A stretch of DNA of 52,437 nt from a virus. The first letter of the stretch is position 1; every line of letters starts with the position of its first letter. Below the pieces are notes generated by a model. The model saw nothing but the letters and a program-made list of their open reading frames with translations. It was not told the origin of the DNA and searched no databases. Positions 3 through 52,437 of the stretch are shown here, piece after piece. The stretch is taken from positions 1 through 52,437 of IMG/VR virus record IMGVR_UViG_3300032242_002237; one strand, written 5' to 3'. Made by a program: the position numbers and the translations under genes.

Positions 3-92
3 GCACAGCATCCTGACGATATCGCCAGGGCTGACATGGACAAGAAAAAGATCGTTGGCGGCTTGGCCACTGTCAAGGACATGTTCCGATGA
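3..92 (+). CDS. C-terminal end of an unidentified protein (cut by window edge)
   Basis: An open frame enters from the left edge and stops at TGA (90-92). The visible tail is about 29 residues, lysine- and aspartate-rich, ending in LATVKDMFR. The stop overlaps the ATG of the next gene (ATGA at 89-92), so the two are probably translationally coupled. Too little is present to name a family. Confidence 0.6.
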   Translation, partial: AQHPDDIARADMDKKKIVGGLATVKDMFR

Positions 93-1243
93 AGATACAC
101 GAAATCATTGTAGAAAGCCGCCGTGTCATACGTGAAGGCATTGCGCATCCAGAAGATGCCATATTCTCACAGCCTGGTGTGCAAGGTGCCATGACCGAAG
201 TAGACAAGCTGGCAGCCATGGCAGTGAACCCAGAATCAACCACCATCAAGTGGGACGGCTTTCCTGCCTTGATATTTGGTCGTGACGTTGACGGACAGTT
301 GATTGTTTCGGACAAGCACATGTTTGACAAAAAGGATGGCTCGGGCCGAGTCAAGAGTCCTGAACAGTTCTTGCAGTATGATCAGAACCGTGGCGCCAAT
401 CGTGGCGACCCCAACAGCTTTGGTGGCAACTTGTACGACAAGATCAACACACTGTGGCCAGCACTGGAACAGGTGATACCACGCAACTTCCGCGGATTCT
501 ATTTTGGCGACTTGCTGTATGCAGGCAAACCTCCTGTGCAAGGCGGTTTCTTTGTGTTCAAGCCCAATGTGATCACCTACAAGGTCAAGCAAAACTCACC
601 AGCAGGCGCACACATTGCGGCCAGCCTGGGTGGCATAGCAGTACACACATTCATTCCTGGCATTGGCGAGCCTGATCGTCCACTCAATGGTCTAGGCGGC
701 CTACCTCCTGATGGACCCATATGGTTTGTCACAGGTGAAATGCCTGTGCCACAGGTCAAGATTGACACCAGCATGATCGCCAAGACCAAGAGCTTGATCA
801 GTAGCAACGAACAAGCAGTAGACAATCTCAAGACCAGCCTGGTAGGCATGAAAGCCAAGGGTGTGATAGATGCCATCAGTCCCTACATCACCAGCAAGAT
901 CACTGCTGGCAGTTTTGACAACATGCTGGCAGGCTTCTACAAGTTCCTTGAAACCAAGCTGAGTGAAAAGGCCAAGACCACGCTGTTGGCCAATGGACAG
1001 GGCTATCTCTACAAAGAAGGTGCCGCTGGCCTGAAAGCTGTGTTTGAGATCTGGGTGGCCATCTACAACCTCAAGCTCAACATCAAGAAACAGATCGACG
1101 GTCAACAGGCCACAGGCGACATACAAGCATTCACAGGCAACGATCCCGGCCACGAAGGTTACGTAGTGGGCGGCGGTGCTGACAAGATGAAACTGATAGA
1201 CAGGCTGGGCTTCAGCCGCGCAAACTTTACCAAGAACGGATAG
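89..1243 (+). CDS. Nucleotidyltransferase/ligase-like phage protein with capsid-targeting-like N-terminus
   Basis: 384 residues. It contains a ligase-superfamily-like motif I (K54-W-D56-G57), a later FYFGDLLY segment resembling motif III, and near the C-terminus EGYVV followed by MKLIDR, resembling motifs IV and V. This suggests a divergent polynucleotide-ligase or nucleotidyltransferase fold with K54 as the candidate adenylated lysine; activity is not established. Proteins of this general look are common in marine T4-like phages. The first ten residues (MKIHEIIVES) match the T4 capsid-targeting pattern with a possible cut after E9, and a second possible site is IRE16|G17. It starts in an ATGA overlap with the preceding gene. 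The fold call is moderate and the packaging idea is inference. Confidence 0.6.
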   Translation: MKIHEIIVESRRVIREGIAHPEDAIFSQPGVQGAMTEVDKLAAMAVNPESTTIKWDGFPALIFGRDVDGQLIVSDKHMFDKKDGSGRVKSPEQFLQYDQNRGANRGDPNSFGGNLYDKINTLWPALEQVIPRNFRGFYFGDLLYAGKPPVQGGFFVFKPNVITYKVKQNSPAGAHIAASLGGIAVHTFIPGIGEPDRPLNGLGGLPPDGPIWFVTGEMPVPQVKIDTSMIAKTKSLISSNEQAVDNLKTSLVGMKAKGVIDAISPYITSKITAGSFDNMLAGFYKFLETKLSEKAKTTLLANGQGYLYKEGAAGLKAVFEIWVAIYNLKLNIKKQIDGQQATGDIQAFTGNDPGHEGYVVGGGADKMKLIDRLGFSRANFTKNG

Positions 1244-3377: not shown

Positions 3378-3945
3378 AACCAAGAAAAAGTTCAACCGGC
3401 AGGTCTTTGAACGTGCTAAACAGCAAGCCACGGCTGAAGCACTGACAGAAGTCATGGCCCGATTCTTCACGCACTGGAGCCGGCAACAGCTGGACCAGCT
3501 GGCAACTGCACAGGAGTTCGTGTGCATAGATCTAGCACGAGATTTCTACCAGGTGGGCAAATACAGCCTGGAGAAACGTGCCGAGAACAGCTGGATCGTG
3601 CGTGATAAGTACAACGAGGTCCTGCATGACTTTTATCACAGGCAAGCGGCAGTTCTATGGTGCTTGCACGAAACACGTGGTATGTTCCAGAAAGCAAGAG
3701 AGTTCTTGAACAACGACAAGCGATATGGATTCATGCAAGATCAGGTGATTGAGTTTTCCGCTAAACTCAAGCAGGCAATGGAAAAACATGACGGATTCCG
3801 CCAAGATCTGTACCTGGCTCGACTGAGCTGGACATATCCTATGTTGGAAGAGGTCCGTAATAATCTACAAAAAACTATTACAGCGGCTAAATACTCTAAA
3901 GCCTTCGGGGAAAAGAAAAATGAAACTGCAAGAACTCGCAACTAG
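3340..3945 (+). CDS. Conserved phage protein of unknown function, basic N-terminus
   Basis: 201 residues. The first 25 are very basic (TTKKHKPKTKKKFNRQ) and the rest is helical and rich in Gln, Lys and aromatic residues. It overlaps the gene before by 38 bases and the gene after by 26, consistent with one operon from 2905 to 5036. The basic start suggests nucleic-acid or core contact. No family recognised. Confidence 0.65.
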   Translation: MVASLTTKKHKPKTKKKFNRQVFERAKQQATAEALTEVMARFFTHWSRQQLDQLATAQEFVCIDLARDFYQVGKYSLEKRAENSWIVRDKYNEVLHDFYHRQAAVLWCLHETRGMFQKAREFLNNDKRYGFMQDQVIEFSAKLKQAMEKHDGFRQDLYLARLSWTYPMLEEVRNNLQKTITAAKYSKAFGEKKNETARTRN

Positions 3946-4636
3946 ACCATCAAGTCTTAGAATCAACAAAGTTAACGAAAGTCGCTTTGGATTCGCCATT
4001 GATTACAGGAAGTTGACACTGCCAAAAGCACGATCACTCAGCGTCACGCTAGGTGAAAACCTACAAAAGCTGAAACAGAGCTTTGGTATCCACAGTGCAG
4101 AAAAGAATCCACGCTACATGGAATTGCTCATGGTGCGTGAAGGTCTCAACCGCTGGATCGAAGAAAATCGCACAGAATTGACTGAAAGTGAAATAGCAAA
4201 ATCTGGTGCCATCCTAGCGGCAAAAGACATCGTGGACAGCATGCAAGACATGTTGGAAGACATCAGCAAGATGCAGAACGAACAGATGCCTGCTTTGCTT
4301 GACACCATTCGCGATCAGATCGGTCAACCACAAGCTGATGCTTTCAAGCAAGCAGTCAGTCCAATCCTACAACAGCTGACACAGCAGTTGCAACAGGCTC
4401 GTGAAACAGCCGACGGCGCCGCTCGTAGCCTGGCTGGTGAACAAACAGCACAGCCAATGGACATGGGCGCACCTGCTCCAGACGCCATGGGCGGTATGGG
4501 CGCACCTGGTGCTGACATGGGCGGAGCACCTGCTCCAGACATGGGCAGTGACCTTGACGCAGATGCTGGTATCGAAACTGGCGCTGTTGATGCAGCCGCA
4601 GGTGGAAACAAAAGTCTCGGTCGAGACAAAAGGTAA
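3920..4636 (+). CDS. Probable prohead-core or internal protein with Met/Gly/Pro-rich tail
   Basis: 238 residues. The N-terminus (MKLQELATRP) fits the M-K/R-x-x-E-hydrophobic pattern seen in other tagged proteins here, though residue 9 is Arg. VNE20|S is a possible prohead-protease site. The middle is helical (about 25-175) and the end is a low-complexity Met-Gly-Ala-Pro-Asp repeat (about 178-225). Long helices plus a flexible acidic tail would suit a scaffold or core protein; this is inference. Confidence 0.6.
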   Translation: MKLQELATRPSSLRINKVNESRFGFAIDYRKLTLPKARSLSVTLGENLQKLKQSFGIHSAEKNPRYMELLMVREGLNRWIEENRTELTESEIAKSGAILAAKDIVDSMQDMLEDISKMQNEQMPALLDTIRDQIGQPQADAFKQAVSPILQQLTQQLQQARETADGAARSLAGEQTAQPMDMGAPAPDAMGGMGAPGADMGGAPAPDMGSDLDADAGIETGAVDAAAGGNKSLGRDKR

Positions 4637-4640
4637 CACC

Positions 4641-5036
4641 ATGCGCATCAGAGAGTTCGCACAGGACTCAAATGATAGCGAACTAAAGTCAGCTATCATT
4701 GGTGTATTGGAATTCGTGCGCAACCGTGCGCACGACAAAAGACTCATGCCCAGCATAGGAACCATTGGTTTGATCAACATGGTCAACAACCAATTGCCTG
4801 GTTCCGGTCTCAACTACGCAACCTTGAAACAGATCTGTGACAGTGATCAAACACTGCAAGGACTGGTCACGGAAGTCAACAGAGACACTGTTGAGCTGGC
4901 ACCATTCGGCGACGAGCCAGATGCTCCCAAAGAACCCGAAGACAGCACAGCCGGTGGCGGCAGTGCCAAAGATCCCACAGCCATAGTGGACAAGATGGCC
5001 AAAAAAGCCTCAGCCAAAAGAGATAGCCTAGCTTGA
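4641..5036 (+). CDS. Conserved marine-phage helical protein with capsid-targeting-like N-terminus
   Basis: 131 residues. The start at 4641 is chosen because it begins MRIREFAQDS, the same N-terminal pattern as other proteins in the window, and lies four bases after the preceding stop. The body (LKSAIIGVLEFVRNRAHDK...SLINMVNNQLPGSGLNYATLKQI) resembles a small helical family I recall from marine T4-like phages, of unknown function. The C-terminus is acidic then Lys/Ala-rich. Probably co-expressed with the 3920 gene. Confidence 0.65.
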   Translation: MRIREFAQDSNDSELKSAIIGVLEFVRNRAHDKRLMPSIGTIGLINMVNNQLPGSGLNYATLKQICDSDQTLQGLVTEVNRDTVELAPFGDEPDAPKEPEDSTAGGGSAKDPTAIVDKMAKKASAKRDSLA

Positions 5037-5458: not shown

Positions 5459-5762
5459 AAAAGCTGCCGAACGCATACAGCGCATGCTGACCAAACGAGG
5501 CCATGGCATAGGCATTCGCCTGGGAGTCAACACAAGAGGTTGCTCTGGCATGAGTTATGTGTTAGAATACGTAGATGAACCACAGCCCGGCGATGACAAG
5601 ATCAGTGACAAAGGTGTCACTATCTTTGTGGACCCCAAGTCCACTTTATACCTACTCGGCACACAGGTGGATTGGCAACGTGAAGGACTCAATGAAGGCT
5701 TCAAGTTTGTCAATCCCAACGAGAAGGGCACCTGCGGTTGTGGAGAGAGCTTTCACATATAA
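5442..5762 (+). CDS. iscA: A-type Fe-S carrier protein (IscA/ErpA family)
   Basis: 106 residues. The three conserved cysteines are present: C34 (RGCSGMSY) and C98/C100 (CGCGESF). A-type carriers receive or deliver iron or clusters between the IscU scaffold and apo-enzymes. The gene overlaps iscU by 17 bases and its TAA shares bases with the ATG of the nuclease gene (TAATG), so all three are likely translated together. IscA and ErpA cannot be separated from sequence alone. Confidence 0.92.
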
Positions 5763-25422: not shown

Positions 25423-25749
25423 ATGTCCGACGATACAATCATCAAGCCAAAAGTGGAACACAGTCTGAAACTAGATCCCAAGCTCAACATTCCTGAACCC
25501 AAGATGTTCAAGGTGATCTTTGTCAACGATGAAGTGACCACCATGGAGTTCATTGTGGAATGTCTCAAAGCCATCTTTCGCTATGAGGAAGAAGAAGCAC
25601 ATGCCAAGACCATGCAAATCCACGAAGAAGGAACTGGGGTGGTAGCTGTGTTGCCATTTGAAATTGCTGAACAGAAAGGCATCGAAGCCACTGTGCTGGC
25701 ACGTAACAATGGCTTTCCTTTGCAAATCAAACTTGAACTGGACAACTGA
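25423..25749 (+). CDS. clpS: ClpS-like adaptor protein
   Basis: 108 residues. FKVIFVNDEVTTMEFIVECL holds the ClpS pocket residues N35, D36 and M41, and H67 lies in the expected HEEGTGVV strand. ClpS binds N-terminal Leu/Phe/Tyr/Trp (N-end rule) and hands substrates to ClpAP. No clpA is present here, so it would work with host ClpA, or block it. The presence of clpX and clpP in the same genome makes a phage-directed proteolysis route plausible. Confidence 0.9.
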   Translation: MSDDTIIKPKVEHSLKLDPKLNIPEPKMFKVIFVNDEVTTMEFIVECLKAIFRYEEEEAHAKTMQIHEEGTGVVAVLPFEIAEQKGIEATVLARNNGFPLQIKLELDN

Positions 25750-26886: not shown

Positions 26887-26924
26887 TCCCATTTCTCCTT
26901 AAGTATAGTTAAGGAGTAGTGGGA
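26887..26924 (+). promoter_or_regulatory. Hairpin that buries the csgF ribosome site
   Basis: TCCCATTTCTCCTTAA (26887-26902) pairs with TTAAGGAGTAGTGGGA (26909-26924) over a GTATAG loop: 15 of 16 positions pair, one as U-G. The paired 3' arm contains the AAGGAG Shine-Dalgarno (26911-26916) and the first base of the ATG. Translation of csgF, and so perhaps the whole curli-like operon, should need this stem to open. The 12-mer TAAGTATAGTTA within it also occurs at 12665-12676. Confidence 0.75.
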
Positions 26925-27373
26925 TGATAAAAAAAATAACAACCCTGATAGTTTTCGCTGCCGCGGTGGTACCTGCATCTGCGGCTCCTCTTGGCGATTA
27001 CCAGTTCAAAAGCCCCAGTTTCAATGGTGCAGGCTATTCCAGCCATGTGTTGTCCATCGAAAGCACAGAAATGGCACGTGCCAAGGCCATACAAGATGCT
27101 TTCACTGCCGCACAGCAGGCTGAGGCCAACAAGGCCGCCAACTTGCCTATAAACCAATTCTTGGTAAACCTTGAGTCACGAATATATGCGCAGATTTCTC
27201 AGAATCTGGCCACTGCCATGTTTGCTGGTGGCAACAACACATCCGGCACCATTGACTTCCAAGGCAATACCATCAACTGGATCAACCAAGGCAACAACAT
27301 AAAGTTGACCATATTTGATCCCAACAACAGCCAAACCATTATCAACGTACCCATACTAGGGGTGCCACACTAA
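26924..27373 (+). CDS. csgF: Curli assembly factor CsgF-like, secreted
   Basis: 149 residues. Signal peptide about 1-20 (VPASA|APLG). The mature start LGDYQFKSPSFNGAGYSSHVL matches the CsgF N-terminus (E. coli FQFRNPNFGG), the part that inserts into the CsgG channel and narrows it. C-terminal beta-rich section (GNTINWINQGNNIKLTIFDPNNSQT) also fits CsgF. It lies directly before csgG, one base apart. CsgF couples secretion to fibre nucleation at the cell surface. Confidence 0.88.
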   Translation: MIKKITTLIVFAAAVVPASAAPLGDYQFKSPSFNGAGYSSHVLSIESTEMARAKAIQDAFTAAQQAEANKAANLPINQFLVNLESRIYAQISQNLATAMFAGGNNTSGTIDFQGNTINWINQGNNIKLTIFDPNNSQTIINVPILGVPH

Positions 27374-27374
27374 C

Positions 27375-28538
27375 ATGAACAAGCTCTTACTCACTGTCAT
27401 GCTGACTGCCTTGCTGGGAGGTTGTGCATCCATGCAAAACTTCTCCGAACCCACACGTCCGGAAGTCAGCAAGAATACCATGCAAAATGATTTTGATGCC
27501 TTGCCTTCACCTGCGACCGGAAGACCAATTGTAGTAGCAGTTTATAGCTTTGTTGACAAGACCGGACAGCGCAAGCCCATTGCCAATGTGGCCAGCTTGA
27601 GCACAGCCACCACACAGGGTGCTGAAGCATTCTTGATCAAGGCCCTGCAGGATGTGGGCAATGGTCGTTGGTTCCGTGTGGTAGAGCGTGTGGGCATTGA
27701 CAACTTGACCAAGGAACGCTTGATCATCCGCCAGATGCGTGAGGCCTATGAAGGACCCAACGCACAGCCACTGCCGCCCATGACATTTGCCGGCATCATA
27801 TTGGAAGGCGGCATCGTGGGCTACGACAGCTCGACCAAGTCAGGCGGAGCGGCAGCTCGTTGGCTGGGCATTGGCGAACAAACACAATACAGTGAAGACA
27901 CTGTGACCATCAGCCTACGTGCAGTGAGCGTGGCCAATGGTGAAGTGATTGCCGCTGTGACTGTGCAGAAGACCGTGGTCAGTTCTGCGGATTCTGTCAC
28001 AGCATTGAAATTCTTCAGCGACGGAACCAAAGCATTTGAAGCTGAAGCAGGATTGACCTTGAACGAGCCAGTTACCTTGGCTACCAAAGCAGCCGTGGAG
28101 TTTGCTGTGGTAGAACTGATCAAGGAAGGCAAGCGCAAAGGCGTGTGGGATTACGCCCGTCCGGTGTCAAGTATGACACAACCTCCAGTGGCTCCTCCAG
28201 CAGACAAAGCACCAGCCAAGCCTGTAGAAAAAATGGCCGAGCCAGTGAAACCCGTAGAGGACAAAAAAGTTGAAGCAACAAGCACACCTGTTAAAGAAGA
28301 TGAATCCATAAAAGAGGGGCAGGCTGTAGTCAAAGCCGCCAGTGCTTGGGTTAGAAAGGGTCGTAGTTTAGTTGACCCTCCAGTGCGAAGCGTCCGTGAA
28401 GGATTGCAGGTTACCGTGCTTCAAAATCAAGATGGCTGGAGCGAAGTGGAGTTTGACGACAGCTTCGGACATCACAAAGGCTGGATTAAATCAAATTTAT
28501 TAAAACAACAAGAGGCTACAAAGCCCGAAGGAAAATAA
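27375..28538 (+). CDS. csgG: Curli secretion channel CsgG with C-terminal SH3-like domain
   Basis: 387 residues. Lipoprotein signal ending in L-G-G-C17. The CsgG domain (about 45-265) has IVVAVYSFVDKTGQRKP, the RWFRVVERVGIDNLTKERLIIRQ helix and the VTISLRAVSVANGEV strands. Nine CsgG subunits form an outer-membrane pore that secretes curlin. Unusual extension: a Pro/Lys/Glu linker (about 268-310) and an SH3b-type domain (about 320-380, VRKGRSLVDPPVRSVREGLQVTVLQNQDGWSEVEF...GWIKSNLL), typical for binding cell-wall peptides. E. coli CsgG lacks it (about 277 residues). Confidence 0.93.
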   Translation: MNKLLLTVMLTALLGGCASMQNFSEPTRPEVSKNTMQNDFDALPSPATGRPIVVAVYSFVDKTGQRKPIANVASLSTATTQGAEAFLIKALQDVGNGRWFRVVERVGIDNLTKERLIIRQMREAYEGPNAQPLPPMTFAGIILEGGIVGYDSSTKSGGAAARWLGIGEQTQYSEDTVTISLRAVSVANGEVIAAVTVQKTVVSSADSVTALKFFSDGTKAFEAEAGLTLNEPVTLATKAAVEFAVVELIKEGKRKGVWDYARPVSSMTQPPVAPPADKAPAKPVEKMAEPVKPVEDKKVEATSTPVKEDESIKEGQAVVKAASAWVRKGRSLVDPPVRSVREGLQVTVLQNQDGWSEVEFDDSFGHHKGWIKSNLLKQQEATKPEGK

Positions 28539-32821: not shown

Positions 32822-34861
32822 ATGAAAAAGATACTCACCAGCCCATGGACGGCACTCATCACTCTTGCACTGATTGTAGGCGTAAGGATCGCAGATCCTT
32901 CATTTGTGGAAAGCGTACGACTGCGCTATTTTGACACATTGATCTCCAGTCGAGCACCAACTGAAAACAACATAGTCACTGTAAACATCGACGAAGCCGG
33001 ACTGGACAAGTACGGACAATGGCCGTTGCCAAGGAGTGAGTATGCCAAAATTATTAAAGACCTGTATGATCGTCATGCTGGCCTTGTCGTGCTTAATGTT
33101 ATCATGGCTGACAGCGATCGCACTGGTGGTGATGGCGCTCTCGCAAATGCACTGAAACAGTACCCCACTGTGCTGGTCAATGTGCCCACAGACAAAAACA
33201 AAAACACTCCTCGCAATCCTGGTGCAGTGATCCTGGGGCCAGAGTGGATGGATCGAATAGTGAACTATCCAGGCGTGATGGCCAACGTGCCGGTGTTGGA
33301 GAATGCTGCCGCTGGCGTGGGCACCGTACACACCATGCCTGAGATAGACGGTGTGAATCGTCGCATGCCCTTGATCGTTGCCAGTGGCGAGCACCTGTAC
33401 CCCAGCCTTAGCATGGAAGTGCTACGATTGGCCGCAGGTGACGAAGCTTTCCAAGTCAAGTTGAACGAATGGGGCGTGGAAAAGATGCGCATTCCAAAGT
33501 TTGGTCCTATCTCAACTGATGAGCTGGGCCGTGTTTGGATCGACTGGTCACAAAAGTCACACGCTTATAGTATCACCAACTTGCCTGCTGACTTCGGCGG
33601 AGCAGTAGTCCTTGTGGGTCCTACTGCGGCAGGTATCAGTAATCCACTGCCTACCTCGATTGGTGCAGTGTATCCCAATGAAGCACAGGCCGCTGTGATG
33701 GGTACCATGTTCAACAATGTGAACATACAGCGTCCAGACTGGGCCGACGGTGCTGAGATCATTGGACTGCTGGTAGCAGGATTATTGTTACTATTTTTAA
33801 CAAGGTGGACTTATGCGGGACTTGCGTCGGTCATTGTATTGGTTGTTGGCGGCATTGTTGGTAGTCAGTATGCTTTCACTAACTTTTTATTCTTATTTGA
33901 TGCTACTGCCTTTGCAGTTGGCACAGTCTTGGTCGCTTTGCATGCCTACGGTGTCAAGTTTGTTTCAGAGTTCCTCCAAAAGCAAGCCATAAAGAAACAG
34001 TTTGCTGGCTACTGCTCTAAGGAAGTTGTAGAGCTATTACAAAAAGATCCAGATTTGATCAAGCGTGGTGTGCGCAAAGACGTATCAGTCATGTTCTCAG
34101 ATCTGCGTGGATTTACTCCTATTGGCGAACACTTTGGAGACGACGTTGCTGGACTGGGCCGGTACATGAATGGTTACATGGATGCCATCAGCCAGCCCAT
34201 GTTGGACAACCGTGGCATGGTCATCAAGTATGTGGGTGATGCGAGTATGCACATACACGGTGCTCCTATCGAAGACCCAAACCATGCTAGAACAATCGTT
34301 GCAGTTGGTTTAGAAATGCTGGATGCAGTGGATGAGTATACCAAGATCATGGAAGCACAAGGCTTACCACCAGCCGCAATGGGTTGGGGTTGCAACTCAG
34401 GCATTGGCTTTATTGGCGAAATGGGTTCAACAGAACGACACAGCTATGATATCTTAGGTGACATGGTTTCAACTGCGGCACGACTAGAAGCACGTTGCAA
34501 GGCCTATGGTGTGTTGTGTATCATTGGTGCAGAGACCTACAACAGAACCAAAGACGACTTCTTCTATCTAATGCTAGATAACCTACAACCCAAAGGTAAA
34601 ACTGTAGCCGACTTGATCTACACAGCACTACGCACACGCGGTGTTGATTACTCAAAAGATAAGGCACAGCACGAAGCGATGCACGATTTATACAGAGCTA
34701 AAAAGTTTGACGAAGCTGCCGCTATGTGTGCCAAGCTCAAGGGCAATTTTGGTGGGCAAATGGACAAGTACTACAAGATCTGGATTGAGCGTTGCGACTT
34801 CATGAAGCAACAGGATCTGGGCGACAACTGGAACGGTGAGTTCGTAGCTCACGAAAAATGA
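32822..34861 (+). CDS. CHASE2-domain class III adenylate cyclase
   Basis: 679 residues. N-terminal membrane helix (about 9-22), CHASE2 sensor (about 28-310, RLRYFDTLISSRAPTENNIVTVNIDEAGLDKYGQWPLPRSEYAKII), three helices (about 318-385), then the cyclase domain (about 415-600). Metal-binding D427 (FSDLRGF) and D473 (KYVGD) are present. K469 and D543 (SYDILGD) are the residues that select ATP over GTP, so cAMP is the predicted product. Codon choice becomes A/T-richer after about 33780. A CHASE2 cyclase next to a FecR gene is an arrangement I recall from bacterial genomes. Effect on the host is unknown. Confidence 0.92.
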   Translation: MKKILTSPWTALITLALIVGVRIADPSFVESVRLRYFDTLISSRAPTENNIVTVNIDEAGLDKYGQWPLPRSEYAKIIKDLYDRHAGLVVLNVIMADSDRTGGDGALANALKQYPTVLVNVPTDKNKNTPRNPGAVILGPEWMDRIVNYPGVMANVPVLENAAAGVGTVHTMPEIDGVNRRMPLIVASGEHLYPSLSMEVLRLAAGDEAFQVKLNEWGVEKMRIPKFGPISTDELGRVWIDWSQKSHAYSITNLPADFGGAVVLVGPTAAGISNPLPTSIGAVYPNEAQAAVMGTMFNNVNIQRPDWADGAEIIGLLVAGLLLLFLTRWTYAGLASVIVLVVGGIVGSQYAFTNFLFLFDATAFAVGTVLVALHAYGVKFVSEFLQKQAIKKQFAGYCSKEVVELLQKDPDLIKRGVRKDVSVMFSDLRGFTPIGEHFGDDVAGLGRYMNGYMDAISQPMLDNRGMVIKYVGDASMHIHGAPIEDPNHARTIVAVGLEMLDAVDEYTKIMEAQGLPPAAMGWGCNSGIGFIGEMGSTERHSYDILGDMVSTAARLEARCKAYGVLCIIGAETYNRTKDDFFYLMLDNLQPKGKTVADLIYTALRTRGVDYSKDKAQHEAMHDLYRAKKFDEAAAMCAKLKGNFGGQMDKYYKIWIERCDFMKQQDLGDNWNGEFVAHEK

Positions 34862-44343: not shown

Positions 44344-44964
44344 ATGCCACAATTCGTACCTACCGTACTAGAAAAAACTTCCAATGGCGAACGTGCCTAT
44401 GACATCTACAGTCGCTTGCTCAAGGACCGTATCGTCATGCTGGACACAGAAGTAAACCAAAACTCAGCCAGCCTTACTGTGGCACAGATGCTGTTTTTGG
44501 AAAGCGAGAATCCTGAAGCGGATATCCTTTTCTACATCAACAGCCCAGGTGGTTCAGTCACAGCAGGCTTGGCCATTTACGATACCATGCAGTTTATCAA
44601 ATGCGACGTTTCAACCATTGTGTTGGGACAGGCCTGTTCCATGGGCAGTTTCCTAGCACAGGCAGGCACGCCGGGCAAGCGCATCGTGTTGCCAGAGTCA
44701 CGCACAATGATCCATCGTGTGAGTTCGGGCACCCCAGGCACCAGTGGTTCAGTCCATGTGCAGGAACTGGAATTTGAGGATGCAAAACGCACCTTTGAAG
44801 AAAGCATGCGCATCAACAAACGCCTGACAGAACTGTATGTCAAGCACAATACCGCAGGCAAGACCTATGATGAACTGTATCAGGCCATGAAGTTTGACAC
44901 ATTCCTGTCAGCCGAAGAAGCAGTGGCGTATGGGCTTGCAGATCGTGTGAGCGAAAAACGGTAA
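44344..44964 (+). CDS. clpP: ATP-dependent Clp protease proteolytic subunit ClpP
   Basis: 206 residues, full length. Catalytic triad S99 (GQACSMGSF), H124 (MIHRV) and D185 ([10 protein letters not shown]) are in place. The usual H-Q-P after the catalytic His is replaced by H-R-V-S-S-G. Forms the 14-mer protease barrel fed by ClpX or ClpA. A strong host-type promoter suggests early expression, away from clpX at 23105. The phage may build its own ClpXP or mixed complexes with host subunits. Confidence 0.95.
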
Positions 44965-45529: not shown

Positions 45530-46237
45530 ATGCGTTTGCAAGAATTCAATCTAGACCAAGCAGTACAGTTCCACGATGAACTCAATCCTCACTTGTGGGA
45601 CGGTGACCGCCTGCGAGACGATGTCAAGGCCAAGCTGGTACGCATTGCCGAGGATTTCAAGCAGTTTATTGGAATCAGCAACTATGACATAGTTGACATA
45701 ACCATATCGGGCTCCAACGCCGCGTTCTCTTATACTCCCAAATCAGACATAGATCTGCACCTTGTGGTCATGATTCCTGAAGAACATGACCCTGAACTGC
45801 GCCAATTGTTTGACGCCAAGAAATATCAGTACAACGACCAGTACGACTTCAAGATACATGGCTATGATGTTGAAGTGTATGTGCAAGATGCCACACAGCC
45901 GCATCACAGCATGGGCATCTACAGCATATTCCGAGACAAGTGGGTCAAGCATCCACAGCCCATACGTGCCACCGTGGACGACAGTGCAGTGGCACACAAG
46001 TACCACGGCTACAAAGAACGCATCAAACAGGCCATACACAGCAACAATGCAGAAATGTGCAGTCGTCTCTGGCACAGCATCAAGGACATGCGCACAGCAG
46101 GACTTGCACGTTGTGGTGAGTTTGGTGTGGAGAATCTCACGTTCAAGATGCTGAGAGCCGAAGGAGATCTTGGAGACCTCAAGGATCACATCACTGCACT
46201 GAAAACACAAGAATTCAGTCTACAGGAGCAGGCATGA
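45530..46237 (+). CDS. Pol-beta-type nucleotidyltransferase
   Basis: 235 residues. G61-S62 followed by D73-I-D75 (SGSNAAFSYTPKSDIDLHLVV) and a third acidic residue E115 (YDVEVYV) give the minimal nucleotidyltransferase (MNT-like) active site. The C-terminus is helical. N-terminus MRLQEFNLDQ fits the M-K/R-x-x-E-F pattern of the tagged proteins, with Asp at position 9. Substrate unknown; relatives modify small molecules, tRNA or proteins. It heads the 45.5-52.4 kb enzyme cluster, joined by ATGA overlaps. Confidence 0.75.
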   Translation: MRLQEFNLDQAVQFHDELNPHLWDGDRLRDDVKAKLVRIAEDFKQFIGISNYDIVDITISGSNAAFSYTPKSDIDLHLVVMIPEEHDPELRQLFDAKKYQYNDQYDFKIHGYDVEVYVQDATQPHHSMGIYSIFRDKWVKHPQPIRATVDDSAVAHKYHGYKERIKQAIHSNNAEMCSRLWHSIKDMRTAGLARCGEFGVENLTFKMLRAEGDLGDLKDHITALKTQEFSLQEQA

Positions 46238-47160
46238 TCAATCTGCATCCGCTGTACGTGCCCAACGATCAGCACATGGTACTGACTACCATAATCGACG
46301 ATGAGAACATGACTGTGAACATACTTGATGTCACGGATCAACCAGACGTGTTCCAAAACCATGTGTTGCCAGAAAATCGCTGTTATCGCATTGGTGGTCG
46401 CACTGACCTCAACAATCCACGCACTGTTCCCAAATATGGGGATCGTGTGCTCAGGAGCATATATCCTGGCGCCATCCTGGAACCCAAAAATCCTCGGGTG
46501 GAAAATGAACTGTTTGAGATAACGCCACTCAGCTATTATTGGCATGGCAATGCTTTTACAGAATCACGCACCAATGTGGCCTTGGACATCTATCAGTTCA
46601 GACAAGATCGTCCAGAGCTGGAACAGTTCTTTCAGGTCAAGCATCCCTACATGGACATGCTGAAATCACAGATACCCTTGCTGGGACTTCATTTGGACAC
46701 ACAAGACGTTCCAGCGGCAGCCGCTGCCGTGAATGCACAGTTCCATGAACGAATGATGTACAAGTTCAACAACAAATGCTTTGCACAGAAATTCTCACAG
46801 CATCGCACCTACATGGTAGGTGGCATCATTGATGAAGTTTATCATGACCAAAAATCCATACAGGACAGCAAGATAACCTATGTACTGGCGGACTTCATTC
46901 TCACACGCAACAGCGAAATGATCAACGCCATGACTGCAGGACTGACATTGGAGCTCTTGGAAATGAACGAGCGCAGGCAAAAATATCTGTTGGATCATTT
47001 GCGAGCCTGGTATGATGGTGGCATTGCCAGCCGCATAGTCAACAAGTTCTACAAGGAGCATGCCAAGAGCTACAACCATCAAGTGTTGTGGGGACTGTTT
47101 GAAGTGGTCACCAATGAACTGGACAACACAATCCGGACCGTGATAGGAGAGCACAAATGA
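46234..47160 (+). CDS. Unknown protein in the enzyme cluster
   Basis: 308 residues, no recognised domain. The N-terminal ~150 residues are beta-rich (MVLTTIIDDENMTVNILDVTDQPDVF...CYRIGGRTDL), the rest helical (LTLELLEMNERRQKYLLDHLRAWYDGGIASRIVNKFYKEH). It lacks the capsid-targeting-like start seen in its neighbours. ATGA overlaps on both sides show it belongs to the same operon. Confidence 0.7.
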   Translation: MINLHPLYVPNDQHMVLTTIIDDENMTVNILDVTDQPDVFQNHVLPENRCYRIGGRTDLNNPRTVPKYGDRVLRSIYPGAILEPKNPRVENELFEITPLSYYWHGNAFTESRTNVALDIYQFRQDRPELEQFFQVKHPYMDMLKSQIPLLGLHLDTQDVPAAAAAVNAQFHERMMYKFNNKCFAQKFSQHRTYMVGGIIDEVYHDQKSIQDSKITYVLADFILTRNSEMINAMTAGLTLELLEMNERRQKYLLDHLRAWYDGGIASRIVNKFYKEHAKSYNHQVLWGLFEVVTNELDNTIRTVIGEHK

Positions 47161-48155
47161 AATCCAAAGACTTCATTGGCACCAGCGAAGTATTCCTAGA
47201 CATGGACGGTGTGCTGGCTGACTTCTTTACTGAGTATGCCAAACTGGCCGGCATCGAGTCCGGCAACTACAGAGACATTCCGCCTGCCAAGGTCGACCCT
47301 ACCTTGGACAAGATGATAGGCACTGACTTTTTCAATCGCTTGCCTGTGTGCAACAATGCCGAGCAAGTGGTCAGCACCAGCGTGAAGATATTTGGTCACT
47401 ACAACATCTGCTCCAGTCCCCTGCGTGGCGACTTCAAGAACAGCGAGCAATGGAAAAAGGTCTGGATCGAACGCAACCTGTCACCTGCACCTGCTCGTAT
47501 CTTGATCACACCCAACAAGGCCAAGTATGCCAAACAGCCCGACGGTACTCCCAACATCCTGGTAGACGATCGTGGCAGCAACATCACTGCCTGGGAAGCC
47601 GCAGGTGGCATTGGTATCAAGTACCAAGCAGACGAGAACAGCATCAGCGACCTGCTGAACGGATTCAAACGTGCCATGTCTATCCTGGCCAAAGAAAAAC
47701 CACATGAGCCACAAAAGCTACAGAGCCTGGATCGAGGCAAGATGATTGCTGTGCAAAGCAGTGGCGACCAGGATGAAGAGCCACATCAGCCCTTGAAAGA
47801 AGGCATTGAAGGCAACCAAGAACTGGTCAGCAATTTCATACGCTGGGTCTACAAGAAACTGCACATCAATCTGCCCATGCCCAAGATACAGTTTGCAGAC
47901 AAGAAAGAAAGCGACCATCAGGACCGCACCGGCTACTACAATCCTGCCACGCATGTGATGTGGATCTATACCGGCAACAGGAACCTGGTAGACATCCTGC
48001 GCACAGTGGCACATGAGCTCACACATCACAAGCAACGCGAAGAAAACACAGAAATAAACACAGCCAAACTGAGCAAGATCGAAAGCCAGGCCGACATGGC
48101 CGCTGGCATGTTGATGAAGCTGTGGATCAAGAAACACCCGGAGATCGTGCAATGA
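47157..48155 (+). CDS. HAD-type phosphatase/5'-nucleotidase fused to a zinc metallopeptidase-like domain
   Basis: 332 residues, two domains. HAD domain about 11-180: D15-M-D17-G (nucleophile and acid), N133-x-x-V-D137-D138, resembling 5'(3')-deoxyribonucleotidases. Metallopeptidase-like domain about 220-332: H286-E287-L-T-H290 with E309 (KIESQAD) as third-ligand candidate. A charged linker (about 180-218) includes LKE215|G, a possible prohead-protease site. N-terminus MKSKDFIGTS resembles the targeting pattern with D for E. Possibly two activities delivered as one chain. Confidence 0.75.
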   Translation: MKSKDFIGTSEVFLDMDGVLADFFTEYAKLAGIESGNYRDIPPAKVDPTLDKMIGTDFFNRLPVCNNAEQVVSTSVKIFGHYNICSSPLRGDFKNSEQWKKVWIERNLSPAPARILITPNKAKYAKQPDGTPNILVDDRGSNITAWEAAGGIGIKYQADENSISDLLNGFKRAMSILAKEKPHEPQKLQSLDRGKMIAVQSSGDQDEEPHQPLKEGIEGNQELVSNFIRWVYKKLHINLPMPKIQFADKKESDHQDRTGYYNPATHVMWIYTGNRNLVDILRTVAHELTHHKQREENTEINTAKLSKIESQADMAAGMLMKLWIKKHPEIVQ

Positions 48156-49477
48156 GAGCCAAGGACTACGAGATCCGCAACCACCCCAAGCTGGATCAAC
48201 TGCTGTTCCAGCTGTGTGAAGAACTGATAGCTGCCAAGAAAAAAGACTTTGAATTCTATGGCATGGTGGCAGCTGGTGTGCTGGATCCAGACAATCGTTT
48301 TGTGATTGGCATCAATCGACCCACAGCAGATGGACACCGTAGCCATGCTGAACGTGTGGCCATCTATCGCTACAAAGAACTGTACGGCGACATCCCCGAA
48401 GGCAGCATACTGTTGACCACGCTGAGTCCCTGCAACGAGCAAGAGGGTTACATGGCCAAAGAAAGATTTGGCTACAGTTGCACACAGCTGATCAATGACA
48501 GCAACCTGCACAAGGTCTACTGTGGTTATGAAGACCCCACACAGCACGAGGATCTAGACAGAGATTTCACACTTGAAGAAACCAGCAACCAACATGTGCG
48601 AGATCTCTGCAAGCAGTTTGCTGACACGTTTCTCAATAACGACCAACAGCTGGGCGAAGGCATTGGCCGACACTTGGCTGCAGGCGCATTGGCCGCTGGC
48701 ATGGCATTTGGTGGCGCAGGTGCCAAGGCCGCAGATACCAACAAGTACCAGGATGATCCTATCATGGCCGTGGTACAACAAAAAGAACAAAGCAAGCTGG
48801 ACCAGGATCGACTGGAACAGATCATACAGCGCATAGAACACGAACGCAAGTTATCTCAAGCAGAAACACCTGCTCCTCAAGCCGCACAGTCAGTGCCGGT
48901 TCCTCCACAGCGAGACATCAAGCCCAGCGGACTAGGACCAATCAGCCGGGTGTTGCCCAAGGCCACAGTGAAGAAAGCCGAGGCCAAACCTCGTGTGTAT
49001 CATCCTGTGACCAGTTCGCCATTGGAGATTGGCCTCCACAACGCCGCAGTCAAGGCCGGTATCAAGGGTGCAGAACTGTTTGCCTTGATGGGGCAGTGCT
49101 TTCACGAAAGCGCCAAGTTTTCTACCACACAGGAATTTGCTTCAGGCGAAGCCTATGAAGGTCGCAAGGATCTGGGCAACGTCCAACCCGGAGATGGCAC
49201 ACGTTACAAAGGGCGTGGCCTGATCATGCTGACTGGTCGTTCCAACTATGCACAGGCCGGCAAAGATCTGCACATAGATCTAGTCAAGCATCCAGAGCTG
49301 GCTGCCAGGCCCGATGTGGCCATCAAGATCAGCCTGTGGTACTGGAAGCACAAGGTACAGCCACGTGTGAGCAACTTTGGTGATGCACGTGCCGTGACCA
49401 AAACAATCAATCCTGCGCTCAAGCACTTGGATCGTCGCAAGGAAGCCACGCAGAGTTTCAAGGTAGCCAGTAAATGA
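48152..49477 (+). CDS. Cytidine-deaminase-like domain fused to a GH19 chitinase/lysozyme domain
   Basis: 441 residues from ATG 48152 (ATGA overlap). Deaminase-like domain about 10-160: H65-A-E67 and P93-C94; the second zinc Cys is probably C110, after a ~13-residue insertion in the usual PCxxC. LGE169|G, then an uncharged Ala/Gly stretch (173-193) like a membrane anchor. Helical linker (about 200-240). GH19 domain about 290-440: CFHE319SAKF, E328/E333/E336, YKGRGLIMLTGRSNY. GH19 cleaves peptidoglycan or chitin. N-terminus MRAKDYEIRN is a weaker targeting-type match. I know of no standard family with this fusion. Confidence 0.8.
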   Translation: MRAKDYEIRNHPKLDQLLFQLCEELIAAKKKDFEFYGMVAAGVLDPDNRFVIGINRPTADGHRSHAERVAIYRYKELYGDIPEGSILLTTLSPCNEQEGYMAKERFGYSCTQLINDSNLHKVYCGYEDPTQHEDLDRDFTLEETSNQHVRDLCKQFADTFLNNDQQLGEGIGRHLAAGALAAGMAFGGAGAKAADTNKYQDDPIMAVVQQKEQSKLDQDRLEQIIQRIEHERKLSQAETPAPQAAQSVPVPPQRDIKPSGLGPISRVLPKATVKKAEAKPRVYHPVTSSPLEIGLHNAAVKAGIKGAELFALMGQCFHESAKFSTTQEFASGEAYEGRKDLGNVQPGDGTRYKGRGLIMLTGRSNYAQAGKDLHIDLVKHPELAARPDVAIKISLWYWKHKVQPRVSNFGDARAVTKTINPALKHLDRRKEATQSFKVASK

Positions 49478-50436
49478 AAATAAAAGAAATCATTTCTGAA
49501 GCCTTTGATCAGCCCTACAAGGGCAAGTGGGAAAAGAGTGATTACGGTGACGTTGATCTAAACGTAAAATTACCCGACGGCACACCACTCAGCATCATGT
49601 TCAACGTTGAACACTTCAATCCGGAATATGACGGAGAAAGCAAGGAAGTGGTACAAGTTGAGTTTTATAGAAACAACAGCCAAGACGTCACCGGCGAGGG
49701 CGATGCACAGCGTATCTTTGCCACGGTGCTAGATGCCATACAAAAATACATTAAAAAATACAAACCCGAACAACTGAGTTTCTCAGCCAGCAAATCACTG
49801 GACATGGACGCGGACGATGTTGAACGGTTCAATCCAGAAAGCCGTGCCAAATTGTACACTAGACTGGTACAACGATATGCTGGTGTCTTGGGCTATCAGG
49901 CCCAGGTTGATGATAATGGCGATGTGGTCATATATCAACTCACACGATTAAAGCAAGGTGTAGCGGAAGGTACCGGCGGTATAGATTTTGACATGCATTT
50001 TGATGACGAAACTGGATCGTTTGCTAAATTGACTGCACGAGCGCACGGTCGTGTGTTAGGGTTTGTTAAATTCTTTGTAGACGGCGACACATTGATTGCA
50101 GACAAATTAGAAGTAGATGAACGCTATCGTGGCCAAGGTATTGCCGCGGCAATGTACGACTATGCCAAATCGCAAGGTTACACCGTGGAAAAAAGCGATG
50201 ACCTAACTCCCGACGGCGAACATTTTTGGAGTAAAAATCGCGGTGATAGATCTGTGTGGGAAAACTTTGCTGATGGTCGGCATCCTGAAGACAAAGGCGA
50301 TTCAAAACGCCATCATGTGCCTACCAAGGCCAGCGTGAGCAGTCTACGCAAATTTGCAAAAAATCATTCAGGCCGTGCCGCACAACTGGCACACTGGATG
50401 GCCAACATGAAATCAGGCAGGGCCAAGAAAAAATGA
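49474..50436 (+). CDS. Two-domain protein with GNAT acetyltransferase domain and capsid-targeting-like N-terminus
   Basis: 320 residues. MKIKEIISE9|A is an excellent match to the T4 capsid-targeting peptide and its cleavage site. Domain 1 (about 12-158) is alpha/beta and unrecognised. VAE165|G is a possible internal cut. Domain 2 (about 168-265) is GNAT-like, with V-D-E-R-Y-R-G-Q-G-I-A-A-A (214-226) as the acetyl-CoA loop. The basic C-terminus (about 280-320) may bind DNA. Codon use is somewhat A/T-richer than its neighbours in places. ATGA overlaps on both sides. Confidence 0.8.
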   Translation: MKIKEIISEAFDQPYKGKWEKSDYGDVDLNVKLPDGTPLSIMFNVEHFNPEYDGESKEVVQVEFYRNNSQDVTGEGDAQRIFATVLDAIQKYIKKYKPEQLSFSASKSLDMDADDVERFNPESRAKLYTRLVQRYAGVLGYQAQVDDNGDVVIYQLTRLKQGVAEGTGGIDFDMHFDDETGSFAKLTARAHGRVLGFVKFFVDGDTLIADKLEVDERYRGQGIAAAMYDYAKSQGYTVEKSDDLTPDGEHFWSKNRGDRSVWENFADGRHPEDKGDSKRHHVPTKASVSSLRKFAKNHSGRAAQLAHWMANMKSGRAKKK

Positions 50437-51095
50437 AAATCTTGGAGATCATAGCAGAATCAGTACATGACAACTTGGTATACCATGCTACCACTTTGCA
50501 AGGACTGCAAGGCATGATCAAGTCAGGACAGATATTGCCCAGCGGCGAAAAGACCGCGCATGGCTGGGGCGGTGGCGGCATTGGTGACCACGGGTCTATC
50601 AGTCTCACTAGAGACCGCAACTATTTTCCATTTGACTTCACTGACGTACAGATTACATTGGATCGTGATGCTTTGGCCAACAACATCAAGATCCGTCCGC
50701 ACAATTTTGGTGGGCGATACGAAGCCGAGGAGCGTGTGGACCGTGCTGTGCCTTTCACCAGTCGGTATGTCAAGCAAGTGAGTTTCCGCAATGATCCTCC
50801 CAGTCGTTCCATGCAAGCAGAATTGAAAAAATTAGGAATCTCTGTACAACAATATCGTGAACTGCCACCAGTGAATCGACAGTACGACTATAGCATCAAT
50901 CCCAAAGACCATGGCGACCAAAAATTAGACTGGCGCATTGAAGACAACAACGGCACCAGCTGGAAACGGTTGACTGACATGACAGCTAGCGAAGCACAGT
51001 CAGTGTTGGACGATTACGAGATGCGCATGAAGCCTGCGGCACAGCGAGACAACCCTGACTATCCCAAGCGTTATCGATTGGTGCAAGACAAATAA
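50433..51095 (+). CDS. ADP-ribosyltransferase-like protein with capsid-targeting-like N-terminus
   Basis: 220 residues. MKILEIIAE9|S is a very close match to the T4 targeting peptide. The body fits an ADP-ribosyltransferase-like fold: VYHATTLQGLQGMIKSGQI (Y17-H18), ISLTRDRNYF (56-65) and E97-A-E99-E100 with RAVPFTSRYVKQVSF after it, matching Y/H, S/T and E-x-E positions. T4 packages and injects an ADP-ribosyltransferase (Alt) that modifies host RNA polymerase, which makes the analogy attractive. The fold assignment is by pattern only; another NAD- or RNA-linked activity is possible. Confidence 0.6.
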   Translation: MKILEIIAESVHDNLVYHATTLQGLQGMIKSGQILPSGEKTAHGWGGGGIGDHGSISLTRDRNYFPFDFTDVQITLDRDALANNIKIRPHNFGGRYEAEERVDRAVPFTSRYVKQVSFRNDPPSRSMQAELKKLGISVQQYRELPPVNRQYDYSINPKDHGDQKLDWRIEDNNGTSWKRLTDMTASEAQSVLDDYEMRMKPAAQRDNPDYPKRYRLVQDK

Positions 51096-51115
51096 CAAAA
51101 GAAAGAACAATCATC

Positions 51116-51556
51116 ATGAGTGAAAAGTTTGAAAGCGATACATTATTCAGCCACGTCAAACACAACGAAGGCGAGTTCAAGGGCGGAGGTCTGCGTGACT
51201 TCTTCTTGTACAAGGACCTGGGTGTGGCGGAAGCAACCAAAGGACGCATACTGGCACATGTCACAAAGGCCAATCTACCTCCAGAAGGTTCAGGCGGCAC
51301 AGGCTGGCACTATCATGTGGCTGAGTTCCAGATTGTGTACATGCTCAAGGGCTGGGCCCGGTTCATGTATGAAGACAAGATACACTTGGTAGAAGCCGGT
51401 GACTGTGTGCAACAGCGTCCAGGCATTGTACACTATCTCTATGACTATTCACCAGACATGGAGTATCTAGAGATCATCACACCAGTGGACTATGGTACCA
51501 TACCCGCCGAAGGTCCTTGCGACATACCCGATCCAACTCCGTGGTCTGAAAAATGA
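51116..51556 (+). CDS. Single-domain cupin
   Basis: 146 residues. H65-x-H67 (GWHYHVAEFQIVYMLKGWARFMYED), Q72 and H106 (PGIVHYLYDYS) match the cupin metal-binding set with Gln in place of the usual Glu. Single cupins can be small-molecule enzymes or sensors; function not predictable. It has a separate ribosome site 20 bases after the preceding gene and is coupled to the hydrolase by an ATGA overlap. Confidence 0.8.
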   Translation: MSEKFESDTLFSHVKHNEGEFKGGGLRDFFLYKDLGVAEATKGRILAHVTKANLPPEGSGGTGWHYHVAEFQIVYMLKGWARFMYEDKIHLVEAGDCVQQRPGIVHYLYDYSPDMEYLEIITPVDYGTIPAEGPCDIPDPTPWSEK

Positions 51557-52140
51557 TATTGGTATATATACACGGCGCCAGCGCCACCAGCGAAAGCTTC
51601 AACTACATACGTGGCAAGCTCAAAGGCCGTGATGTGGTTGTGAACTATGACAGCCGCAACGGCTTTGAAAACAACCTGGCTGACATGAAGAAACAGTTGG
51701 CTGACCTAGACCACATGTTCTTTGTGGCACACAGCCTGGGCGGTGTGTATGCCCTGCACATAGCCAATGCCATGCCTGACCAAGTGTTGGGTGCTGTGAC
51801 CTTGAGCACACCCTATGGTGGTGCTGAAGTGGCTGAAGTGGTCAAATACTTCCTGCCATTCAGTCGGTTGATGCGTGACATTGGTCCCACATCATGGGCC
51901 ATGAAGCAGGCAGACAGCATCAAGATACAGCATCCTTGGACCAACGTGGTCACGGTGAAAGGACAAAGTCCGTTCATGGTCGAACCCAATGATGGTGTGG
52001 TTACCATTGCCAGCCAGCGTCATCACAAAGACATGGAACTGATAGACGTTGATTACAACCACTACGAAGTGGTGCTCAATGATCAAGTTGTTGGTATCAT
52101 CAAGAACCGAATAAATACTCTAATTACAGGAAACAACTGA
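51553..52140 (+). CDS. Alpha/beta hydrolase (lipase/esterase-like)
   Basis: 195 residues. Oxyanion H7-G8 (VYIHGASA), nucleophile elbow A-H-S61-L-G-G (59-64), a late Asp (VEPNDGVVTIAS) and His (NHYEVV) form a complete triad in the right order. Short form resembling small lipases or acyl-hydrolases. No signal peptide, so it acts in the cytoplasm or is injected. Starts in an ATGA overlap with the cupin gene. Confidence 0.85.
   Translation: MILVYIHGASATSESFNYIRGKLKGRDVVVNYDSRNGFENNLADMKKQLADLDHMFFVAHSLGGVYALHIANAMPDQVLGAVTLSTPYGGAEVAEVVKYFLPFSRLMRDIGPTSWAMKQADSIKIQHPWTNVVTVKGQSPFMVEPNDGVVTIASQRHHKDMELIDVDYNHYEVVLNDQVVGIIKNRINTLITGNN
52110..52119 (+). promoter_or_regulatory. Late-like promoter AATAAATACT
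   Basis: TAAATACT lies inside the 3' end of the hydrolase gene, 22 bases before the ATG at 52142, with an AGGAAA ribosome-like site between. Confidence 0.55.
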
Positions 52141-52141
52141 C

Positions 52142-52437
52142 ATGCGCTATCACGAACTTATTAACGAGTCACGCACACTGGGCGGTTTTGCCGTCAAACC
52201 AGTGAACGTGGAACAAAACGAACCAGAAGTAGATGAAGCCATTGGCCTCAATGCTCCACAACGCAGAGTCAGCCGCGACGAGTTGCAAAGCTACGCTGAT
52301 CGCATCAAGACCGGTACCAAGACCAAACGAGACAAGTTTGAACCTATCATCCATGGATCCAACATCAAGGCCATCACCCGAGACGACGGGACCGAATGGG
52401 ACCTTGACGATCTAGCCAAACAGATTACCACACGCCC
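52142..52437 (+). CDS. N-terminal part of a protein with capsid-targeting-like start (cut by window edge)
   Basis: 98 residues are visible and the frame is open at the right edge. It begins MRYHELINE9|S, a close match to the T4 targeting peptide and cleavage site. A second candidate site is VDE32|A, followed by AIG. The rest is charged and helical (RVSRDELQSYADRIKTGTKTKRDKFEPII). No function can be given from this part. Confidence 0.75.
   Translation, partial: MRYHELINESRTLGGFAVKPVNVEQNEPEVDEAIGLNAPQRRVSRDELQSYADRIKTGTKTKRDKFEPIIHGSNIKAITRDDGTEWDLDDLAKQITTR

Follow-up and report, generated by a model that had tools for sequence, protein, structure and literature searches.

The DNA analysed here, referred to as the window, is the complete IMG/VR record IMGVR_UViG_3300032242_002237, a viral stretch of 52,437 bases that is probably a genome fragment. 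Nine of its proteins begin with Met, Lys or Arg, two variable residues, Glu or Asp, and a hydrophobic residue. They start at positions 89, 3920, 4641, 45530, 47157, 48152, 49474, 50433 and 52142, and are named below by these positions. All nine N-termini were listed in a sequence-only reading of the window and are present; Tyr must be counted as hydrophobic, because the 48152 protein begins MRAKDY. A tenth such start, absent from that reading, is found at 3165 (MKIIEV) and carries no Glu site. In four proteins Glu9 is followed by Ser or Ala, exactly as had been read (a slash marks a predicted cut): 89 (MKIHEIIVE/S), 49474 (MKIKEIISE/A), 50433 (MKILEIIAE/S) and 52142 (MRYHELINE/S). In phage T4, the internal proteins and Alt carry a capsid-targeting sequence (CTS) of 10-20 residues, which binds the core and is removed by gp21 (PMC7411985, in part). 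The CTS is all that the T-even internal proteins have in common (PMC3012670, in part). They were found through this signal, and three of the T4 proteins block GmrSD restriction enzymes (PMC12373910, in part). The sequence patterns described here suggest, with a probability of roughly 0.73, that the window encodes T4-type capsid-targeted cargo of a jumbo phage of the T4 superfamily, and that part of this cargo consists of polyproteins cut by the prohead protease.

Relatives were retrieved with the 49474 protein, which contains a GNAT acetyltransferase domain, and the 89 protein, a member of the DUF6267 family. The window and six related records together hold 2393 genes. Gene starts were taken from a home-made caller, which did not assign the start at 4641. 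In the window, the loose motif M[KR]..[EDQ][FLIVM] begins 8 of the 75 called genes, compared to 0.46 expected from shuffles of residues 2-16. The strict motif M[KR]..[EDQ][FLI].{1,3}E[ASGN] begins four, compared to 0.0 in shuffles. Across the seven records the loose motif is present in 93 genes (shuffled sum about 14) and the strict motif in 28 (shuffled sum 0.45). T4 has the loose motif in 4/239 genes (shuffled 1.6). The sequence-only reading would have counted an equal frequency of the pattern in unrelated cytoplasmic proteins of related phages against the tag. In three 50-kb stretches of phiKZ (150 kb) it begins 1/203 genes (shuffled 1.2), the level expected by chance, which leaves the idea of a tag standing. 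Motif genes are neighbors more often than under random placement in all seven records; this clustering is least marked in the window, with the observed value being reached in 56 of 2000 simulations. The 54 tagged proteins scanned with Pfam matched 19 families, several of them enzymatic. As in T4-type CTS cargo, an N-terminal peptide of about 10-20 residues is common to otherwise unrelated proteins.

The border between tag and body often carries a site resembling that of a prohead protease. We defined this site as hydrophobic-x-E/small, or [LIVFM].E/[GASTN], and counted it in residues 5-14. It follows the tag in 33 of the 93 motif proteins, compared to 79/2174 untagged proteins and 31/763 controls with a hydrophobic residue 6. 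The excess persists when one protein is drawn per family (15/43 versus 22/454; median p 2e-8 over 200 draws, worst 3e-6). Farther along these tagged proteins, in residues 40-60, there is no excess (7/85). Five of the nine window proteins, 89, 3920, 49474, 50433 and 52142, have a clear site after the tag.

Relatives differ in their tag sequences and mostly retain the border Glu. Among 34 distinct homologous N-termini of the DUF6267 family, 30 have [LIVFM].E/[GASTN] ahead of an HPED motif; tags in this family include MKITEIFNKPSEPVFIKE/G, MLLQELFAPRKSILKE/G and MKLREFITE/A. The site beside the body in this family is E16/G17 (VIRE/GIAHPED), which is also the nearest site in the window protein. 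In the model of the 89 protein, residues 1-16 have a predicted local distance difference test score (pLDDT) under 50, and the mean pLDDT is 81. In the 3920 family, [LIVFM].E[SNTAG] is kept in 15 of 18 N-termini, that of the window included. Glu9 had been read as the cut position. The four cases stand, but in the 89 and 3920 families the site next to the body is at residues 16 and 20, respectively, and a uniform cut at residue 9 was replaced by a border site at residue 9 to about 24. The 49474 body begins AFDQPYKGKW and is preceded by MKIKEIISE in the window and by MRASEFITE in G003, a related record of 367 kb. A distant relative in KVP40 (26% identity, E 0.005) reads MIIFEDINPLCE/AFDRPAPYKW. 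It adjoins the counterpart, identified by eye, of a gene annotated as Alt-like in Vibrio phage D484. The homologue of the 52142 protein in G007, a 160-kb record, begins MRYNELVNE/TRTLGGF and is 67% identical over 98 residues. Relatives of the 4641 protein include MRIHEFLSE/D, MRLRELFE/S and MRVRELFE/S; in others, for example MRINEVSGS, the site is missing. Relatives of the 45530 protein start with MRLQEF, MRLNEF or, mostly, MN..[ED]L. T4-like tags also begin two proteins of other phages: a cytidylyltransferase of cyanophage S-WAM1 (L235 3673-4728; MRFRQFIIE/A) and a protein of Methylophilales phage Melnitz-2 with a similar GRFNPP motif (L236 4580-6519; MKKFSEIIE/A).

Candidate protease sites are also found inside the multidomain proteins, a finding beyond the sequence-only reading. 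Similar to polyvalent proteins, 49474, 47157 and 48152 each contain several unrelated effector domains in one polypeptide. In 49474, predicted joints separate two cargo domains from each other and from a basic C-terminal module of 57 residues, with the GNAT domain ending at SVWE263/N264. The site scan found a single site in 47157, PLKE215/G216, between the HAD and metallopeptidase domains (nucleotides 47801/47802). In 48152 it placed a joint, QLGE169/G170, between the deaminase and GH19 domains (nucleotides 48658/48659), and two further sites (83 and 319) inside domains.

Features of the tagged proteins in the window (slash, predicted cut)
Feature	Position	Strand	Details
Tag region of DUF6267 protein (gene 89-1243)	89..136	+	MKIHEIIVE/SRRVIRE/G; predicted cut after residue 16 and/or 9
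20-residue tag of gene 3920-4636	3920..3979	+	Predicted cut NKVNE/SRFGF; family site E20/S
Degenerate tag MRIREFAQ/D of gene 4641-5036	4641..4664	+	Gln where several relatives have Glu
MRLQEF start of nucleotidyltransferase-like protein 45530-46237	45530..45547	+	Cleavage site not found
MKSKDF-started fusion of HAD/deoxyribonucleotidase and metallopeptidase	47157..48155	+	phrog_2643, residues 10-163; phrog_87, residues 248-326
MRAKDY-started fusion of cytidine deaminase and GH19	48152..49477	+	Pfam dCMP_cyt_deam_1, Glyco_hydro_19
Tag MKIKEIISE/ of multidomain protein 49474-50436	49474..49500	+	G003 homologue MRASEFITE/, same body
First cargo domain of 49474, DUF6934-like, residues 10-165	49501..49968	+	Ended by predicted joint QGVAE165/G166
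Second cargo domain of 49474, GNAT acetyltransferase, residues 166-263	49969..50262	+	Acetyltransf_1, E 5e-6
Basic C-terminal module of 49474, 57 residues (264-320), starting NFADGRHPEDKGDSKR	50263..50433	+	
Tag MKILEIIAE/ of gene 50433-51095	50433..50459	+	Body fold unassigned; sequence basis
Tag MRYHELINE/ of protein truncated by the window end	52142..52168	+	G007 homologue

The C-terminal module recurs behind many bodies. It was found in 47 distinct proteins from 121 related loci (L001-L121) and fetched records, after duplicates with the same first 60 residues were dropped. The tag motif is present in 39 of these proteins, and in 42 the module is at the very C-terminus. The bodies ahead of it include deaminase, GNAT, HAD, NUDIX-like and cytidylyltransferase-like types, among others; several of these names come from motifs read by eye. 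It is also present in miniproteins of 63-66 residues that consist of tag plus module, and relatives contain module-bearing proteins of up to 2547 residues. A second set of 54 module proteins left out 20 loci of contigs already used, included two loci from metagenome-assembled genomes (MAGs), and was not deduplicated against the first 47. In it, 34 of the 49 proteins with complete starts are tagged; for the 617 other genes in these loci the number is 128. A broader tag pattern that fits 46 of the 47 module proteins was left unused, since it also fits 306 of the 617 other genes in such loci. At least 576 stretches encoding the module were confirmed in a scan of IMG/VR. A search of a collection of bacterial and archaeal genomes with one peptide pattern confirmed two module loci, both in MAGs. 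Searches of Pfam (at cut-off), PHROG and, by tblastn at E<=1, 50,697 GenBank phage records gave no match to the module, and the PDB gave a single, non-significant one (E 0.89). It is undescribed in the libraries searched.

The borders of two unrelated modules show the same pattern. Upstream of the C-terminal module, P1 is Glu in 82 of 82 fusions and P3 is one of LIVMF in 65. The first body of 49474 (residues 10-165) also occurs inside larger proteins. All 21 such internal copies have Glu at P1, and 19 have one of LIVMF at P3. P2 and P4-P8 show no comparable conservation in front of either. Over 25 distinct occurrences this body directly follows Glu every time, whether a tag or a joint precedes it. 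Tags, bodies and modules are recombined in a modular way, and the pattern at these joints resembles the L/I-x-E/ motif of the prohead protease at the level of sequence.

One group of fusions suggests a further role for the predicted cut. In 48152 a stretch resembling a signal peptide by eye (48659-48730) follows the joint and precedes the GH19 domain. The window and the loci L002, L004, L009, L017, L023 and L070 share this arrangement, in which GH19 comes after a Glu site and a hydrophobic stretch resembling a signal. The L070 protein, encoded in record G013, has a Pfam match to a twin-arginine translocation (TAT) signal, and the L023 protein has an RRGFL motif. In L070 (8898-9533; G013 103509-104144) the tag is followed directly by the TAT signal and GH19, MRATEFVTE/MDRRGFLRGLAGAG. 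The arrangement is not clear in the tagged GH19 proteins of L010, L053 and L054. G001, G003 and G013 encode an additional, separate short GH19 protein that is untagged and has no signal-like stretch, presumably an ordinary endolysin. In G004, G005 and G007 a short untagged GH19 protein is the only one found. In some GH19 cargo a cut at this site would expose a stretch resembling a secretion signal, and the enzyme may then be exported to the cell wall once delivered.

A candidate enzyme for these cuts is encoded by relatives. Twenty related records were searched, our pick of the larger contigs among the 121 loci, and a gp21-type protease (PF03420, S77) was found above cut-off in eight. G003 has homologues of 33 of the 75 called window genes at 29-80% identity, so the window phage belongs to a wider group with G003 and is not its close relative. 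The major capsid protein of G003 shares 67% identity with its PA5oct counterpart and 64% with those of Rak2-like phages. The head genes of G003 are arranged as in T4: portal, two small genes, gp21, gp22 and gp23. The two small genes were named gp67-like and gp68-like by position; portal, gp22 and gp23 were identified by reading and by tblastn with T4 portal, gp21 and gp23. At the place corresponding to the T4 cut, inferred by analogy, the capsid proteins of G003, G005, G013 and PA5oct read LLAE/S, LKE/N, LAE/N and LVE/N, respectively. The small gene after portal has a motif start in G003 (MKLFEMFDQ) and PA5oct (MKINDIITE/G), and M[IF] in G005 and G013.

PA5oct also provides virion data. Its record carries a note of detection by electrospray ionization tandem mass spectrometry (ESI-MS/MS) on 93 coding sequences, of which 90 were recovered among our 421 gene calls. 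The note is present on 6 of 10 genes with the loose motif, compared to 84 of 411 others (one-sided p 0.008, or 0.014 when limited to proteins of 60 residues or more). Among PA5oct genes with an MK or MR start and no motif, 8/58 carry it. Eighteen of the 93 motif genes have PA5oct homologues, corresponding to five PA5oct genes in all. EST35_0150, 0205, 0237 and 0349 carry the note and 0382 does not. EST35_0237 is homologous to the 3920 protein and EST35_0349 to the first domain of 49474. The 3920 protein also matches phrog_14154 over 99 residues (E 9e-12); this PHROG is a virion structural protein.

Together, the border Glu kept across relatives, the PF03420 protease in 8/20 records, the enrichment in PA5oct virions and the chance level in phiKZ give good support to the proposal that diverse proteins carry T4-type capsid-targeting tags. 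The central idea of the sequence-only reading holds, and its extent exceeds what was stated there. In the mechanism we propose, the N-terminal peptide (Met-Lys/Arg-x-x-Glu-hydrophobic) would bind the prohead core and draw the protein into the growing head. A gp21-type prohead protease would then cleave the peptide off after hydrophobic-x-Glu. The same protease would cut the polyproteins at interdomain joints, after E9, E165 and E263 in 49474, E215 in 47157 and E169 in 48152. The mature head would contain separate enzymes and the small basic C-terminal module, all delivered into the cell together with the DNA. Cutting would uncover the signal-like stretch in some GH19 cargo, and export to the cell wall may follow delivery. 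Targeting, cleavage, packaging of these exact proteins, their injection and the targets of the enzymes are what we infer. Extended to the group, the proposal is that a large and mostly uncultured branch of T4-type jumbo phages delivers polyproteins. Tag, enzymes and a dedicated basic C-terminal module would be synthesized and packaged in a single chain, which the prohead protease would separate into injected enzymes. The hydrophobic-x-Glu joint would be the unit of recombination. Some GH19 cuts would unmask a secretion signal, TAT-like in L070 and L023, through which the newly infected cell would export a cell-wall enzyme. We favor this fuller version, somewhat less firmly than capsid targeting with partial polyprotein cutting.

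Several results weigh against capsid targeting with prohead cleavage. No prohead protease was found in the window, and the G003 head genes had no match in the window, G001, G004 or G007; since these records are all probably fragments, the missing matches are not evidence of absence. No site in residues 5-25 is present in 52 of the 93 motif proteins, some of which may be chance matches and some of which may carry an uncut tag. In the window no site follows the tag in 45530 or 47157, the site is degenerate in 4641, and none is located near the start of 48152. A looser pattern that allows other second residues shows an excess of about twofold (45 versus about 20 in shuffles). Homologous proteins are non-independent data points. 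Tag dialects specific to each genome were considered and dropped, as the similarity of unrelated tags within a genome was not significant (129/2000 permutations). XacN1 virions contain a chitinase and a lipase (PMC5852040, in part). They were ruled out as virion support for a tagged chitinase, because neither has such a tag at its annotated start. Packaging therefore does not need the tag in this wider group.

The alternative that survives best, although we consider it unlikely, is that the proteins are tagged and packaged but delivered whole, with the internal hydrophobic-x-Glu motifs being uncut linkers or domain edges. Packaged multidomain phage proteins can remain whole, as the N4 virion RNA polymerase is unprocessed (PMC5512222, in part). 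The Glu in front of the C-terminal module may partly be the module's own residue: Glu-Asn precedes it in 47/47 proteins of the first set and Glu plus a small residue in 54/54 of the second, where P3 fitted in 38/54. The overall density of [LIVMF].E[GNAS] is hardly raised in motif proteins (4.7 versus 4.1 per 1000 residues), and the claim of cleavable joints therefore rests on the module borders and the QG[VMIL].E subset. This linker is about 4-fold enriched in motif proteins (0.40 versus 0.098 per 1000 residues in untagged proteins), and its D/K/Q control is not (0.17 versus 0.15). Likewise, G[VMIL][ANGST]E gives 0.96 versus 0.29, and its Asp control 0.37 versus 0.26. Uncut linkers also do not readily explain why P1 Glu and a hydrophobic P3 precede two unrelated modules and match the capsid protein sites, or why the DUF6934-like body starts right after Glu behind tags and joints alike.

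A role of the start motif in labeling late or structural proteins for a purpose other than head entry, such as tail or baseplate assembly, or sorting to a membrane or compartment, is improbable. The PA5oct notes do not tell head proteins from tail proteins, the test is small, and four of the ten motif proteins carry no note. The lack of a cut site near the start in over half of the motif proteins would also fit such sorting. However, the motif is linked to sites like those of the prohead protease, the gene after portal starts with it in G003 and PA5oct (not in G005 and G013), and the Pfam families of the tagged proteins are many and partly enzymatic. Chance or start-codon context, by which Lys or Arg close to Met together with a helical start would make N-termini of this kind frequent, can be dismissed almost entirely: MK and MR starts are indeed common (77/422 genes in G003), but composition-preserving shuffles, phiKZ and MK/MR controls without the motif give no signal, and the signal survives sampling of one protein per family.

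Two labels from the sequence-only reading gained no support. The 89 protein had been called ligase-like. It has a KWDG motif. DNA and RNA ligases are among its fold matches, but no match reaches E<=0.001: the two strongest, to a designed protein (E 0.18) and an RNA ligase (E 0.23), are non-significant. The label ADP-ribosyltransferase-like for 50433 is likewise unproven. This protein has no Pfam match, its model is unusable (pLDDT 45), and a PDB sequence search gave one non-significant match, to another protein. A scan of IMG/VR, able to find only close relatives, confirmed none. For 45530, a match to phrog_36119 (E 6e-45) is accompanied by one to PF01909 (E 0.009) that is below cut-off.

Genes 46234, 47157, 48152, 49474 and 50433 (window 46234-51095) each overlap the preceding gene by 4 bases, which suggests translational coupling of the cassette. 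Gene 46234, within it, is untagged. Elsewhere, the window encodes phage CsgF and CsgG curli secretion proteins (26924-28538; PF10614 E 3e-13, PF03783 E 9e-50), followed by a protein without a Pfam match and a FecR-domain protein. A CHASE2 sensor is fused to an adenylate/guanylate cyclase domain at 32822-34861. Neighboring genes for IscU-like (NifU_N) and IscA-like Fe-S cluster assembly proteins are located at 5072-5762, and genes for ClpX, ClpS and a protein that is ClpP-like by eye at 23105-24310, 25423-25749 and 44344-44964. Both groups have homologues in G003.

If capsid targeting with polyprotein cutting is correct, much of the cargo of giant phages could be read from sequence through the tag, the hydrophobic-x-Glu joints and the C-terminal module. 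It would provide a list of candidate host-takeover and anti-defense enzymes from uncultured phages, delivered at the onset of infection. It would also mean that a tailed phage matures polyproteins in the manner of other viruses, with the capsid protease as the processing enzyme. Among titles and abstract openings on capsid targeting or prohead protease, a coverage outside which preprints and most subscription journals fall, no such tagged jumbo-phage cargo appears. A term search of a 2026 review of jumbo phages found neither 'capsid targeting' nor 'prohead protease' (PMC13282480).

The window proteins resemble T4 IPI-III and Alt in their short N-terminal peptide with an acidic-hydrophobic core, the hydrophobic-x-Glu site and the unrelated bodies behind it. 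Unlike the T4 proteins, they have more bodies per genome, more often enzymatic, and include multidomain proteins with internal joints and a conserved C-terminal module, in uncultured phages. Head and ejection proteins of SPN3US are cut by its prohead protease at an A-x-E motif (PMC7411985, in part). phiKZ differs from the window group in the near absence of the T4-like start motif (a single gene in 150 kb). PA5oct shares tagged families with the window group, four of five with MS notes, and an inner-body rod has been described in the related coliphage phAPEC6 (PMC7247149, in part). PA5oct and Rak2-like phages differ in that the C-terminal module is unmatched in the GenBank phage records. Polyvalent proteins of phages and conjugative elements are similarly multidomain effectors of early infection, with GNAT, nucleotidyltransferase, peptidase and lysozyme-type domains, and have been likened by their authors to viral polyproteins (PMC5512222, in part). 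Their release was proposed to occur through embedded peptidase domains (same source), whereas the joints in the window proteins match the prohead protease motif behind a capsid tag. Pfam and PHROG matched no peptidase family in 48152 or 49474; 47157 has a metallopeptidase-like domain. The class of tag is known from T4, and what is new is the range of enzymes, the C-terminal module and the predicted cutting of polyproteins.

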